Assembly (NCBI GenBank): GCA_016125385.1
Contig: WGLV01000009.1
Location: 1 to 43,791, forward strand
DNA length: 43,791 nucleotides
Direction of reading: 5' to 3'
Source of the DNA: a bacterium
GTDB taxonomy: Bacteria > Hinthialibacterota > Hinthialibacteria > Hinthialibacterales > Hinthialibacteraceae
Positions 26,120-41,323 of this stretch are shown piece by piece. Within the stretch, counting starts at the first letter, position 1, and each line of letters begins with the position of its first letter. The position numbers and the translations under genes were made by a program. Below the pieces are notes generated by a model that saw nothing but the letters and a program-made list of their open reading frames with translations, was not told the DNA's origin and did no database searches.

Positions 26120-28981
26120 TCATTGCGCGCCCAGAACGACCGCCTGCCTGCTTTTCCGCCCATATCGTATCACGCTTTCGCCGCATTCAAAACCAACCAG
26201 CTCAGGCGCGTAAAAAACGCCGCCGGTTTTGGGGGGCCGGGTCACGTAGACCCGCCGGTCAGACCACGCCGCGGTGATCTTCTCGCCCTTGTTGTCGGCC
26301 AGCAGATAGGGCGTGATCTGGTTCGGAGAGAATTTGACCTTGAGGTATGAGCCGTTGACCATCAGATAAAAAACCCCCTTCATGGCGCTGTCGCGGGTGG
26401 CGACCACCAGGTCGGCGTCCGACTCGATGAAGGGGTTGTCGATCTTGTCCTCTTCCGCGACGGCGATCACTTCGACGCCGTCGCGCCACTCCAGCACGCG
26501 AAGACCGGGAAACGGCAACGAGGCGTATTTGGGCGCGATGGGCTCGCGGCCCTTCTGTTCGAGAAAAACGAGGTAGAAAAACGGGAGGACCGGTTCAGTC
26601 AACCTCATCTCCATCAGATCGCCCAGCACGCCGCTGGTTGCGCGGACGCCCGCCATCGATTCCGGTGAAAAAATAAAATGCAGCTTGCCCGACGGGTTGG
26701 GGGCGTACTTGCCCATGCGCTCCATGCGGCGCATGACCTGAAAGTCGCGCACGTTATAAATCTCGTCGCTGAGTTCATCGCCGGGTTTATCCATATAGAC
26801 CCATTCCGGAAATTCACCGCGCTGGGTTTGCGCGCCGGAAGGAATGGAGGCGATGACGTAGGTCGCGCCCACCACCGGGCTGGCCTGAGCGGGGTAATGA
26901 GCAATCACGCTGAAGGGGCTGCCGATGGTGGCGCCATGCCGCCGCACGATGACGGTTTTGCCCTGCGGCGCGTAGTCTTCCCACACGGTGTAGATCGATG
27001 TCTGAAGCGACTTCGTGATGGCGGGCGCCCAGGGGGGGGCGATTACGGGCTGCGCGCCGCCCCCCGCTTCCGGCGAAACGTTTTCCACCGTCGCATTCGC
27101 GATCACGCCGGTGGCGGATTCGAGCAACCCGGCGGGCGCGGCTTCGCCGCTGACGGGTTCGATATCGCTGGCGGCGGCGATCGCCCCGGCCGAGACGGCG
27201 CCGCTGGATGACGCTACGCCGCTGGCGGCCTCCACCGTTTCCGTCGCCGGTTCAACCGTTTCGGTGGCGGCGTGCAGCGCGGAAGGCGCCACGCCCTCGC
27301 GCGCGATTTCGTGAAACCAGCGCCACTGCATGCCGCCCTCGACCATGAGAAAACTTTCATGCGTCAGCGTAATGGTGGAGGCCAGCACGGTATCGGTGGC
27401 GGATTGGGTGGCGAGGAAAAACTCCTCACGCGGTTCATGCACCGACAGCGCGGTGATGTTGGAATCGGGATAGCGAACCAGCGCCGCCTGATCGAGGGCG
27501 TTGGCGTAGCCGTTGGCGGCGGGCCGGTAATAGAGAAAGGCGTAGGGGTGGTTGTCAGACTCACCCGCGATCTGGTCCCAGAGTCCGGCGAAACCGAGCT
27601 GGGGGTTCTCAACATCGGCGAGGCGGTATACCACGCCCCACATCGGCGGCACGGGCGGATCGCTCCTGCGCGTCCAGCCCGCAGCACGCCGCTGTTCGAC
27701 GGATGGTTGAGGCGTGGGTTCAGCGGCGGGGGGCCGAGGCAGGCCGAAGCGCTCCAGCTGCTCGCGCAGGGTCATGCGTTTGCCGGGGTGTTCGATGTCG
27801 ACGCTGAGCGAGTTGGCGGGTTGCTGAATGATGGGCAACTCGCCGGGTTCGGTGTCGCCGGGCGAGAGCGGCAGGCTGGCGGCGGTTTGTCCGGTTTGAG
27901 CGTCGTACAAGTCTTCAGATACTGAAACAACCAGCGAATGAGTGGCGGGAACCCACGCGGTCGTCACTGGCTCGGAGGGATTGGGCGCGATGATATCGGT
28001 CTTACCGGGGATGCGATGCACCTCCAGCGCGGCGGCCAGCCGCGACCAGGCGTTGGGCGGCGCGGCCTGCGCGTAGCCGAGGCGGGAGAGCGTTTGAGTG
28101 AACGGCGCGGCCAGTAACAGGCGCGTTTCGAGATCGGTCAGGTTGAGAGCGAACTGCCGATCCGCTCCCTCCGCGCGGTCGAGGCCCGCGCTGGTGAGAG
28201 CGGCGGCGTTATACAGATCGGGCAGCAGCGACGACGCGCTCTGGTTTCGGTCTTTACCCCATTCGTTGTCGAAAATAGAGATACAGAACAATGACGACAG
28301 CCCCAGCCCGGCGCCGTACGCCAGGCAATCGCCGGGGGGCGTATCGGCGGGCGACAGGGTGCGCACGTGCGCGGCCAGCCTCTGGCGCGCGGCGTCGAAG
28401 CGGCGCGAGGGTTCGTGGCGGTCGATGGTGTCGATGCGGAAATACGCTTCATCGAACAGCATGGCGGCCAGCCCCAGCATCAACGCGCGGCGCGGGGTGA
28501 AATCGGTCTCGGGCAGACCGTTAACGCCGATGGAGGGCGCGCGGTCGATCTCGTCGAGCAGACGGTTAAATTCGACGCGCACGGCGCTCAACCCCCAGCG
28601 TTCGTGCTTGAGACAGACGTAAGAATACATCTCGATGACGATACGGCTGTAGAGCAGAAAATCCGCATCGCCCAGCATGCCGGGGTGAAACTCAACGTCT
28701 TTCTGAAAAGGGCCTTCACCGATATAAAACGGCGAGTCTTCATGCATGAAGCCTTCAACCCGCGTCAGAAATTCTTCACCGCGCGCTTTTACCGGGCCGT
28801 AGCGGGTGAGACGTTCCGATTCGCGGGCCTGATCGCGGCTGATGGCCAGCATTGGGCGGCCCGCTTTTTGCGCCTCGCCGATCACCCCGTTGGGGATCGG
28901 GGGCAGGACCTGCGCCGCCGCGCTCAAAGAGCAGGCGAGCACAAACAATAAACCGATCGATAAACCGCGTGGTTTCATCAT
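26120..28981 (-). CDS. Large secreted protein of unknown function
   Basis: A 953-residue exported protein. The open frame extends to 29137, but the signal peptide MMKPRGLSIGLLFVLACSLSAAAQ starts at 28981 and the extension has no plausible signal, so 28981 is taken as start (the next ATG, 28978, is equally possible). Residues about 30-330 are helical and contain many aromatic and charged residues (FLLYSRIVIEMYSYVC, ALMLGLAAMLFDEAYFR), resembling an alpha/alpha toroid such as in polysaccharide lyases; the rest is beta-rich. A low-complexity Ala/Glu/Val/Ser linker lies at about 570-650. I do not recognise a family; comparison with lyases is only an impression. It ends 45 bases before glcD and is divergent from pcm. 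GC-rich like its neighbours. Confidence 0.78.
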   Translation of the reverse strand: MMKPRGLSIGLLFVLACSLSAAAQVLPPIPNGVIGEAQKAGRPMLAISRDQARESERLTRYGPVKARGEEFLTRVEGFMHEDSPFYIGEGPFQKDVEFHPGMLGDADFLLYSRIVIEMYSYVCLKHERWGLSAVRVEFNRLLDEIDRAPSIGVNGLPETDFTPRRALMLGLAAMLFDEAYFRIDTIDRHEPSRRFDAARQRLAAHVRTLSPADTPPGDCLAYGAGLGLSSLFCISIFDNEWGKDRNQSASSLLPDLYNAAALTSAGLDRAEGADRQFALNLTDLETRLLLAAPFTQTLSRLGYAQAAPPNAWSRLAAALEVHRIPGKTDIIAPNPSEPVTTAWVPATHSLVVSVSEDLYDAQTGQTAASLPLSPGDTEPGELPIIQQPANSLSVDIEHPGKRMTLREQLERFGLPRPPAAEPTPQPSVEQRRAAGWTRRSDPPVPPMWGVVYRLADVENPQLGFAGLWDQIAGESDNHPYAFLYYRPAANGYANALDQAALVRYPDSNITALSVHEPREEFFLATQSATDTVLASTITLTHESFLMVEGGMQWRWFHEIAREGVAPSALHAATETVEPATETVEAASGVASSSGAVSAGAIAAASDIEPVSGEAAPAGLLESATGVIANATVENVSPEAGGGAQPVIAPPWAPAITKSLQTSIYTVWEDYAPQGKTVIVRRHGATIGSPFSVIAHYPAQASPVVGATYVIASIPSGAQTQRGEFPEWVYMDKPGDELSDEIYNVRDFQVMRRMERMGKYAPNPSGKLHFIFSPESMAGVRATSGVLGDLMEMRLTEPVLPFFYLVFLEQKGREPIAPKYASLPFPGLRVLEWRDGVEVIAVAEEDKIDNPFIESDADLVVATRDSAMKGVFYLMVNGSYLKVKFSPNQITPYLLADNKGEKITAAWSDRRVYVTRPPKTGGVFYAPELVGFECGESVIRYGRKSRQAVVLGAQ

Positions 28982-36501: not shown

Positions 36502-36708
36502 ATTAAGTGACTCCCCAAAACAAAGTTCCACCAAGATACCCAGCCCGCGCGTGAAAGCCAAGGGCGGAAAATTTCGCGCCGGATCGCGAGTCCGGGGAAA
36601 AATCTGCCCGGGGTCGAACCCCCTTTTCATGAGCCATTCCATGACTCGATTGACGTAATGGCCTGAAATTACAGTGGATAAAACGTAACGCGGATCATTG
36701 GAATCTCA
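36502..36708. other. Intergenic region upstream of the sigma-54 site
   Basis: About 300 bases separate the two divergent genes. The left part includes the ribosome site of the symporter gene and a CCCGGGGTCGAACCCC palindrome-like stretch near 36606-36623; no other element is supportable. No gene is seen. Confidence 0.4.
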
Positions 36709-36723
36709 TGGCACGGCCCTTGC
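36709..36723 (+). promoter_or_regulatory. Sigma-54 (-24/-12) promoter
   Basis: TGGCACG-GCCC-TTGC matches the RpoN consensus TGGCACG-N4-TTGC exactly, with 12 bases from the GG to the GC. It faces the small gene that starts at 36809, giving a leader of about 70-75 bases. This would need an enhancer-binding activator, probably upstream, which I cannot identify. Confidence 0.7.
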
Positions 36724-36808
36724 CCATTGCTTGCGTGGAGCAAGACGCCTCCGCCTTATCGCGCGAAGGTTTTCGCGCACGACTTCACACGCGATTCATG
36801 GGACCGCA

Positions 36809-37072
36809 ATGGCGCTCGATCAGGTAGCCAACAATTCGTTGTATCGCCCCGTGCCGTCTTCGACGCTTCAACAGAATCTGGCGCGGTATTACAAACGAAC
36901 CGCCGAGTTCGTGAATGAAAACTTTCACGAACTGCGCAACATGGCGTCAGACCGGAACCCCGGCGCGACCGACCAGCCACAAGACCCTCAGCAACCCGCC
37001 GAGGTTTCGTCGCCGTTCCGCGAACGCGTGCGCCCCGTCGGCCTGGGCGGCAACCTCGACATCTTCGTGTGA
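36809..37072 (+). CDS. Small protein of unknown function downstream of a sigma-54 promoter
   Basis: An 87-residue soluble protein. Residues 8-45 form a charged helical segment (LQQNLARYYKRTAEFVNENF), followed by a Pro/Gln/Asp-rich disordered stretch (50-70) and a distinct C-terminal tail ending GLGGNLDIFV. There is no signal peptide. A longer frame to 36698 overlaps the promoter and is not plausible. GGGA precedes the ATG. A strong hairpin terminator follows 41 bases after the stop, so it is a one-gene unit under RpoN control, if the promoter is real. I do not recognise a family. Confidence 0.6.
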   Translation: MALDQVANNSLYRPVPSSTLQQNLARYYKRTAEFVNENFHELRNMASDRNPGATDQPQDPQQPAEVSSPFRERVRPVGLGGNLDIFV

Positions 37073-37113
37073 GACGGCGTCACGGTTTATCGATCTCCCG
37101 AACCGATCGAAAC

Positions 37114-37142
37114 AAAAGCCCATCCAGTGGATGGGCTTTTTT
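37114..37142. terminator. Bidirectional terminator
   Basis: An 11-bp stem (37114-37124 with 37130-37140), 5-base loop; T run on the plus strand to 37142 and on the minus strand TTTTGTTTC. It ends both the sigma-54 gene and the aldo/keto reductase gene. Confidence 0.85.
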
Positions 37143-37181: not shown

Positions 37182-38150
37182 TCAATGCTTTGGAACGGGA
37201 AACAACTCGAGCAGGCGGCGTTCGAGATCGCTGGTGACGTCGACCTCCAGCGCCTTGAGATTGTCGCGAAGCTGGTCGATGCGCGTCGCGCCGGTGATGA
37301 CGCTGCTCACGCCCGGCTGATTGAGAGTCCACGCCAGCGCCAGTTGGGCGCGGGTGCAGCCCGCTTCGTCCGCCAGCGGCTTCATGCGCCTGACCTGTTC
37401 GACGAATTCGGGTTTATACCATCGTTCGCGGATGAAATCGATCTTGGCGAGGCGTGAATCGGTGGGGATTCCCTCATCGTACTTGCCGGTGAGAAAACCC
37501 GAGGCCAGCGGGCTCCACGTCACCATGCCCATGCCGTAGTCGGCCGCCGCCTGACGCACGCCGCCGTCGATGATATGACGCACCAGCAGGCTGTATTGCG
37601 GCTGCTCGACCTGGGGGCGGTAGAGGTTGCGCTCGTTGCAGAGTTCGTTGACGGCGCGCAGTTGTTCGGCGCTCCATTGGCTGGTTCCCCAGTAGAGCAC
37701 CTTGCCCTGATGGACGAGGTCGTCCATGGCGCGGGCGGTTTCTTCGAGCGGGGTGTTGGGGTCGGGCCGGTGACAGAAATACAGGTCGAGATACTCGACG
37801 CCCATCCGTTTCAGGCTTCTGTGGACCGATTCCATGATGTGTTTGCGCGACAGCCCGCGATCGTTGACGTCGTCGCTCATGGGGAAGAAGACCTTGCTGG
37901 AGATCACCAGTTCATGCCGGGGAAACTGGCGCAGCACCTTGCCCATCACTTTTTCGCATTCGCCTTTTTCATAGATGTCGGCCGAGTCGAAAAAGTTGAT
38001 TCCCGCGTCGAAGGCGGCTTTGAGAATGCTTTCGATCAGCGCCTGATCCTGCACCGAGCCGCCGTAGGTCGTCCAGCCGCCGAGGCTGAGCGCGCTGACT
38101 TGCAGACCGCTGTGACCCAGCGGCCGGTAGGTCATATCGGGTTTTGACAT
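37182..38150 (-). CDS. Aldo/keto reductase
   Basis: A 322-residue NADPH-dependent oxidoreductase with a TIM-barrel fold, close to the YghZ/voltage-gated K+ channel beta-subunit branch (AKR6/AKR14). Catalytic tetrad: Asp55 (FFDSADIY), Tyr60, Lys86 (VISSKVFF) and His127 (YFCHRPDP). The cofactor site includes SPLASGFLTGKY and SSVITGATRIDQLRDNLKAL. It is cytosolic. AAGGA precedes the ATG. It lies 54 bases downstream of the AI-2E transporter gene on the same strand and is probably cotranscribed. Substrate is an unidentified aldehyde or ketone. Confidence 0.9.
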   Translation of the reverse strand: MSKPDMTYRPLGHSGLQVSALSLGGWTTYGGSVQDQALIESILKAAFDAGINFFDSADIYEKGECEKVMGKVLRQFPRHELVISSKVFFPMSDDVNDRGLSRKHIMESVHRSLKRMGVEYLDLYFCHRPDPNTPLEETARAMDDLVHQGKVLYWGTSQWSAEQLRAVNELCNERNLYRPQVEQPQYSLLVRHIIDGGVRQAAADYGMGMVTWSPLASGFLTGKYDEGIPTDSRLAKIDFIRERWYKPEFVEQVRRMKPLADEAGCTRAQLALAWTLNQPGVSSVITGATRIDQLRDNLKALEVDVTSDLERRLLELFPVPKH

Positions 38151-40464: not shown

Positions 40465-41118
40465 TCATCCGCTGCGGACCACCAGCTCGCCGTTCGAGGT
40501 AAGTCCGTTGGTGGCGTCATACGGAACGCCCCAGGTCGCGGTGGGCATGTCTCCATCGGGGCCGAACCCCAGCAGAACCCATTCATTGGTGCGCAGAGGG
40601 CGGACGCCGAACATTTCCGTCGTGTTCATCTTGGGGTTGTACGCGGGGATGTAAAACCCGCCTTCGGCGGCGTCGAGCACTTCCAGATCGCCATAAATGT
40701 ACGAGCGGAACGTGACCTGGTTTCCACCATGCACCGCCACGCCGAACTTCTCGATGAACGGATCGTTGGGGATGGACGTCATATAGCTGATCGGCGAGGT
40801 CAGCGGCGCCAGCACGTCGGTCGCGGTGCGCTGCAACTGGTTCTGAACGAAGCCCACGTTGTTGAAGACGTTTTTGAGGCGGTCGGTCGCCCATTCGTGG
40901 TCGTCGTCCCACAGGTCGACGAGCATCACGTTTTTATCGAGGCGCAACATCTCAATAGCCGTGCCGACGTTTTTCATATCGGCGAGGCTGCGCGCCGCCT
41001 TGGCGCGGATCTGGGCGTTAAGAAAATTCGGGACGGCGATGGCGGCGAGGATGCCGATGATCGCAACGACGATCAGCAGTTCAATCAGAGTAAACGCGGA
41101 ACGGTTCTTTCTTCCCAT
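40465..41118 (-). CDS. Second pseudopilin-like protein with non-standard cleavage site
   Basis: A 217-residue prepilin-type protein related to the one at 13891-14568. The leader MGRKNRSA is followed by FTLIELLIVVAIIGILAAIA with mature Glu5, but the residue before the cleavage site is Ala, not the usual Gly; prepilin peptidases tolerate Ala. The globular part has LWDDDHEWA and the shared LAPLTSPISYMTSIPNDPF, then GFGPDGDMP. The start at 41118 is better than 41151 because the leader is then short. No pilus or secretion genes adjoin it. It is divergent from hflK. Confidence 0.88.
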   Translation of the reverse strand: MGRKNRSAFTLIELLIVVAIIGILAAIAVPNFLNAQIRAKAARSLADMKNVGTAIEMLRLDKNVMLVDLWDDDHEWATDRLKNVFNNVGFVQNQLQRTATDVLAPLTSPISYMTSIPNDPFIEKFGVAVHGGNQVTFRSYIYGDLEVLDAAEGGFYIPAYNPKMNTTEMFGVRPLRTNEWVLLGFGPDGDMPTATWGVPYDATNGLTSNGELVVRSG

Positions 41119-41323
41119 CGTCAATTCACTCACATTGTAAAGTCGACTCATTTAGTGAGGATAATCTTACTCCGGCGTGAAACCGATTACAAAAAGAATT
41201 TTTCGGGTCGGATTTGTCGTATGATGCGGAGAGGTTCGCTGAAAAGCGAAGCGTCCCGTTCATCCCGGGCGCGAAAAAAGGTACAACGTAGAGAACCTCA
41301 GGCGAAAAAAGGAGTCTTGCTTC

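Follow-up and report, generated by a model that had tools for sequence, protein, structure and literature searches.

A conserved 87-residue protein encoded by a one-gene sigma-54 unit, a probable flagellum-assembly helper in an uncultured bacterial lineage

The locus described here lies in a 43.8-kb stretch of bacterial DNA (43,791 nucleotides, referred to as the window in the following) and centers on a short gene for a protein of 87 residues, P0001, which is equipped with its own promoter and terminator. On its upstream side, it is flanked by a divergently oriented sodium:solute symporter gene, and on its downstream side by a convergent aldo/keto reductase gene (37182-38150). The features of the unit are, in the order of their positions:

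36566 to 36578, + strand: weaker second candidate activator site, GGAAAATTTCGCG (score 10.7; position about -143)
36596 to 36608, + strand: candidate activator (enhancer-binding protein, EBP) site, GGAAAAATCTGCC (score 15.1 with a matrix built from flgK sites only; shuffle p 0.005)
36709 to 36723, + strand: sigma-54 (-24/-12) promoter core TGGCACG-GCCC-TTGC, TGGCACGGCCCTTGC, an exact consensus match
36735, + strand: predicted transcription start, 12 nt past the C of the -12 element, as expected from sigma-54 promoter geometry
36809 to 37072, + strand: gene for P0001 (eight homologues; dN/dS 0.16-0.20 in a trio from a sister family)
36857 to 36952, + strand: part of the gene that encodes the only predicted helix (residues 17-48; AlphaFold2, three sequences)
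about 37114 to 37142, + strand: intrinsic terminator, probably bidirectional (hairpin of 12 bp with a T run behind it; z -3.0 vs shuffled sequences)

An initial annotation of this DNA had proposed a one-gene unit, and the divergent and convergent orientation of the two neighbors is in line with a monocistronic transcript. The 87-codon frame closes with ...GLGGNLDIFV at 37072, the very ending that had been described; a longer frame in the same register (36698-37072) was disregarded, since its start precedes the promoter. As had been claimed, the ATG at 36809 follows the sigma-54 site, but the spacing, given there as about 70 bases, amounts to 85 nt when counted from the last base of TTGC and to about 74 nt when counted from the predicted transcription start. 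The strong terminator was likewise recovered in the form of the hairpin and T run listed above, and it is probably common to this gene and the convergent aldo/keto reductase gene. The 5'-untranslated region is no better structured than shuffled sequences, and a comparison with Rfam yielded no match. Elsewhere in the window (40465-41151, - strand) lies the gene for a protein that resembles type II secretion/type IV pilins and has a methylation motif at its N-terminus; similar pilin-like genes turn up near other loci of related genomes.

The promoter core had been called an exact RpoN match with correct spacing, and this holds in every position: all 11 specified bases of TGGCACGGCCCTTGC are identical to the consensus, and the GG-N10-GC distance is correct. 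It is the sole core without mismatches in the window, where simple arithmetic predicts about 0.02 perfect cores by chance in 2 x 43.8 kb, and it scores best within the 200 nt 5' of the start codon (shuffle p 0.002). Matches with up to two mismatches are not enriched in the window (8 observed vs 18.8 expected), and the lone site at 36709-36723, taken by itself, is weak evidence.

Searching the own genome and 145 relatives with P0001 returned eight homologues, with single-sequence E values of 8e-20 to 1e-6. Five are from genomes of the same family (G001 to G005, the own genome being G000), and the three further carriers belong to a sister family within the order. The orthologues that the initial annotation had advised to look for in related genomes thus exist. 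A profile search over 14 genomes of the phylum and 386 relatives retrieved the same nine proteins (E 2.5e-29 to 1e-35, these being the profile's own members) and no other credible match; about 375 genomes outside the nine carriers gave no credible homologue. Weak matches outside the order (E 0.002-0.1) were dismissed as short or interrupted by stops, and a candidate in G009 (L185) as a 40-codon open frame that lacks the motif. In the sister-family trio, the gene has a dN/dS of 0.16-0.20, and P0001 is, as judged from these substitution rates, under purifying selection. The family alignment has an N-terminal motif, S-L-[FY]-[RQ]-P-x-P followed by LQxNLA-x-Y-x-x-T-x-x-V, which a variable linker separates from a conserved C-terminus, G-x-x-[LIV]-D-[IV]-x-[VA] (G-L-G-x-x-L-D-I-x-V in P0001). 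Searches of Pfam, NCBIfam and the PDB with the family gave no credible match; a hit to GvpQ (NCBIfam, E 4e-4), obtained with one member only, was taken as a helix artefact. At the level of sequence comparison, this is a new protein family that is restricted to one order.

This family also decides how the promoter is to be read. In nine of nine members, the highest-scoring sigma-54 site among the 200 nt that precede the gene is the -24/-12 element, with individual shuffle p values between 0 and 0.011 and at a distance of 51-100 nt from the start codon; the -12 element of the G004 homologue reads GT, not GC. It is this conservation across homologues that places the site at 36709-36723 above chance. 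The own genome encodes one sigma-54 factor (Sigma54_DBD, E 7e-61) and about 22 strong enhancer-binding proteins (Sigma54_activat). Both the retention of the site at the orthologues and the presence of rpoN had been marked for checking in the initial annotation; the former is seen in all eight homologues and the latter in the same Sigma54_DBD match. The view that a consensus-like sequence happens to precede a spurious reading frame can draw on the eight loose matches in the window, but nine conserved proteins with nine conserved promoters, together with the low dN/dS, refute it, and we assign it practically no probability.

AlphaFold2 models based on three sequences reach a mean pLDDT of 62, with a block of 80-92 for residues 11-40 and values below 50 from about residue 52. 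The protein is accordingly predicted to consist of a single amphipathic helix that a disordered linker joins to the conserved C-terminal tail. C-termini of the type hydrophobic-Asp-x-x-[AVI] tend to recur in FlaG (L132-L143), FlgN (L215-L218) and the 87-residue family, and an Asp in the fourth position from the end, preceded by a hydrophobic residue, is common to the family and to FlaG and FlgN of the phylum. As this likeness was spotted post hoc, we treat the shared ending as a lead only for a possible common docking partner. The FliS tail, too, is conserved in the phylum, mostly as RLN[IL]xG (L120-L130, L073-L075), and four genomes of the same family have a similar RL[NK]P-x-G near the C-terminus of the 87-residue protein.

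In the sister genus g7, the homologue is situated directly upstream of a glycosyltransferase-fliD-fliS cluster on the same strand, with a weak hairpin in between; adjacency to fliD is limited to this one genus. Just 3' of the homologue (L009-L011), about 80 nt are near-identical in three species and more conserved than their flanks. This block is rich in hairpins (AGTAGCGCTAAGAGTAGGCGCTATTTC... then GGCCGCAG...CTGCGGCC), and may be a terminator or an RNA element between the homologue and the glycosyltransferase-fliD-fliS genes. Within the own family, the gene does not stand beside flagellar genes; its usual neighbors are the symporter and the aldo/keto reductase, and the divergent symporter is kept beside it in G000, G001, G002 and G005.

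Because the sister-genus homologue adjoins glycosyltransferase-fliD-fliS, we examined the own genome for its flagellar genes. FliD and flagellin are present in 14 of 14 genomes of the phylum. In the own genome, a sigma-54-like site lies just before the first gene of the flgB rod operon and of the flgK-flgL operon, and upstream of flgB there is a gene (G000:C74:46385-47794) for a response-regulator EBP with a Fis HTH, which resembles NtrC-family regulators, FlrC among them. A PF00460 rod motif was noticed in a short frame of 107 codons (G000:C42:85465-85554; L191, L196), other matches to this family being confined to flgB, flgC, flgE and flgK-like genes; in this assembly, FlgF/FlgG seem to be absent, or else diverged or interrupted. 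Five other flagellated genomes of the class have no detectable homologue of the 87-residue protein. Since these relatives build flagella without a detectable copy of it, the protein is dispensable for flagella generally and, on its genomic distribution, an accessory or replacement part rather than a universal one.

The decisive test of a connection to these genes uses a palindrome. In the five same-family genomes examined, flgK is invariably preceded by a sigma-54 site (5/5), and these five promoters share a 13-bp palindrome, GG(C/A)AA-N3-TTGCC, at +53/+54 from the first -24 base. Its likeness to sequences upstream of the 87-codon gene was initially spotted by eye and then scored with a matrix trained on the five flgK sites alone, the homologue sites being left out of the training. 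Upstream of P0001, the top match is GGAAAAATCTGCC, which precedes the -24 element by 113 nt, and the weaker GGAAAATTTCGCG is spaced 30 bp (about three helical turns) from it; the G001 and G002 homologue promoters also have a second, weaker palindrome, with a pair spacing of about 31-34 bp. Sites for enhancer-binding proteins within 200 bases upstream, for which the initial annotation had proposed to look, are therefore present as two candidates, one strong and one weaker. The top matches in the six homologue promoters of the family are at -113 in G000 (shuffle p 0.005), -113 in G001 (0.012), -79 in G002 (0.018), -79 in G003 (0.013), -89 in G004 (0.001) and -112 in G005 (0.008). With the same matrix, the flgB promoter has a palindrome at -87 (p 0.007). 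Among the sister-family homologues, GGAACTTTTTGCC is unchanged at -250/-251 in all three species, differing from the palindrome at one base and lying far upstream (-250), and the sister-family flgL has a palindrome at +55, in the same layout as flgK. In the published literature, a search turned up no clear precedent for a flagellar activator site of the form CGGCAA-N3-TTGCCG. An inverted repeat of another kind, CAGTA-N3-TACTG, is located 5' of the sister-genus homologue promoter (L073:10336, L074:5491) and is degenerate in the third species; it is possibly the site of a second regulator.

By the flgK-only matrix, no palindrome is present at seven further sigma-54 promoters of this genome (p 0.14-0.99), among which are those of amtB, hypA, a kinase-EBP operon and a chemoreceptor-like gene. 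Strong sigma-54 sites of this palindrome-free kind lie on contigs C73, C35, C8 and C31 of G000 (L026, L021, L019, L020); the genes behind them are an apparent ammonium transporter gene (amtB), hypA-like genes, a chemoreceptor-like gene and an operon for a sensor kinase and an EBP, names that we assigned by reading the translations. Over 1.05 Mb of this genome, 19 palindromes, GGAAAAATCTGCC being one of them, and 94 sigma-54-like sites exceed the threshold, and six close pairs of the two are found vs about 0.5 expected by arithmetic from these counts. The six pairs precede the 87-codon gene, flgB, flgK, a gene for a CheY-like receiver and a 101-residue helical reading frame, and one is probably a chance pair. 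The CheY-like gene (L207:4082-4486, + strand; G000 contig C73, about 28081-28485) encodes a single receiver domain behind a sigma-54-like site and a palindrome and is probably in the same regulon. The lone 101-residue frame (L226:11000-11305, + strand; G000 contig C42, about 50999-51304) has a sigma-54-like site, TGGCACGCCTGTTGTT, and the palindrome 102 nt upstream; it has no Pfam match, is not detectably FlgN, and is possibly a second unnamed small protein of the flagellar regulon.

These data also bear on a reading in which the gene serves the adjacent sodium:solute symporter or some other process, with a palindrome that is shared by chance or serves a global activator. The symporter is indeed kept alongside in the four genomes named above, and sigma-54 sites in the own genome are not confined to flagellar genes, as those before amtB and hypA, among others, show. 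Yet the homologue has flagellar neighbors in the sister genus, and the palindrome occurs at flgB and flgK and is lacking at the seven other sigma-54 promoters, so we consider this reading very unlikely. From the palindrome and sigma-54 sites shared by flgK, flgB and the homologues, and from the layout in the sister family, we infer that the gene belongs to the sigma-54 flagellar regulon, an assignment that is well supported at the level of sequence. The proposal of a new small regulator or structural protein in the initial annotation is thereby narrowed to a flagellar-regulon protein, by way of the palindrome shared with flgK and flgB.

Our preferred reading, to which we assign a probability of roughly 0.62, is a one-gene unit of the sigma-54 flagellar regulon that encodes a small assembly adaptor or checkpoint. 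The activator would be of the NtrC type, and the most likely candidate is the response-regulator EBP whose gene immediately precedes flgB. Bound to the palindromes near -113 and -143, it would fire the -24/-12 promoter jointly with those of the rod operon (flgB) and the hook-filament junction operon (flgK-flgL). The mRNA would stop at the terminator and yield the 87-residue protein, most likely a small cytoplasmic flagellar assembly factor. Its helix may hold the activator, a substrate exported late or the chaperone of such a substrate, and its C-terminal tail may dock on a second partner such as the export gate, so that the protein would link the rod-hook and filament stages as an adaptor or checkpoint. 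It is, in short, probably a new flagellum-assembly helper.

A regulatory function within the same regulon would look similar in several respects. A disordered anti-activator or anti-sigma peptide, akin to FlgM or to FliX acting on FlbD, could feed back to the EBP or to sigma-28; the small size, the single helix and the disorder predicted by the models are reminiscent of FlgM, and both the lone transcription unit and the regulon shared with middle flagellar genes would be in keeping with this role. However, a separate FlgM scores above the family cut-off in nine of nine carriers, and neither FlgM nor any other known regulator matches the protein in sequence, which makes a regulator of this type unlikely. 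Alternatively, the product could be a small component associated with the filament or the junction and exported by the flagellar type III apparatus. Its apparent co-regulation with rod and hook-filament junction genes, its place next to the filament cap gene in the sister family and its disordered termini, which are common among export substrates, would be compatible with such a role; but it is without the terminal motifs of rod, hook or flagellin proteins, has no match to solved flagellar proteins and offers a single short helix only, and we regard an exported component as distinctly unlikely. A bolder version of the preferred adaptor reading, tentative and on balance rather unlikely, is that of an order-specific, mostly disordered checkpoint or export adaptor that docks via its G-x-x-h-D-x-x-V tail and partly replaces the job of FlgN or FliT. 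If true, it would mean that an adaptor with a tail resembling those of FlgN and FlaG arose in, or survived only in, this lineage.

For a poorly known lineage without cultured members, these results bring a conserved protein family that has no name yet into the programme of flagellar assembly and turn a lone hypothetical small protein into a testable flagellar hypothesis. The predicted activator site, GG(C/A)AA-N3-TTGCC, could further be used to find the remainder of the sigma-54 flagellar regulon in this lineage.

Among known flagellar proteins, three invite comparison. Like the anti-sigma-28 factor FlgM, P0001 has about 90 residues, is largely disordered and is assigned to the flagellar regulon, but it has no sequence relation to FlgM; identity with it is rejected on the basis of a Pfam scan that was negative for all nine members (PF04316) and of the FlgM that each carrier has of its own. 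With FlgN, the export chaperone of FlgK and FlgL, it shares the co-regulation with flgK seen here and, in the FlgN of the sister families, the C-terminal hydrophobic-Asp-x-x-[VAI]; it is, however, half as long and has one helix, and homology is rejected, with PF05130 unmatched in Pfam and a profile comparison probability of 0.2%. With FlaG, which controls filament length, it has the C-terminal pattern [LM]-G-x-x-h-D-x-x-[VA] in common. The homology that this pattern suggested is rejected as well (PF03646 unmatched; profile comparison probability 0.4%), and eight of the nine carriers have a separate FlaG gene above the cut-off, G002 having a weak match only.

On the level of the regulon, the closest counterparts are the RpoN-dependent middle flagellar genes under FlgSR in Helicobacter and Campylobacter, FlrBC in Vibrio and FleSR in Pseudomonas (PMC3930126). 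As in these cascades, we find sigma-54 promoters together with an NtrC-type response regulator, a regulon that takes in rod and hook-filament junction genes, and FlgM for the late stage. Unlike in them, the target is a protein family that is not known from these systems, encoded in the window's family by a single-gene unit away from the flagellar operons. The gene is thus of a kind that is already known, an RpoN-dependent middle flagellar gene, and it is the protein family that is new.
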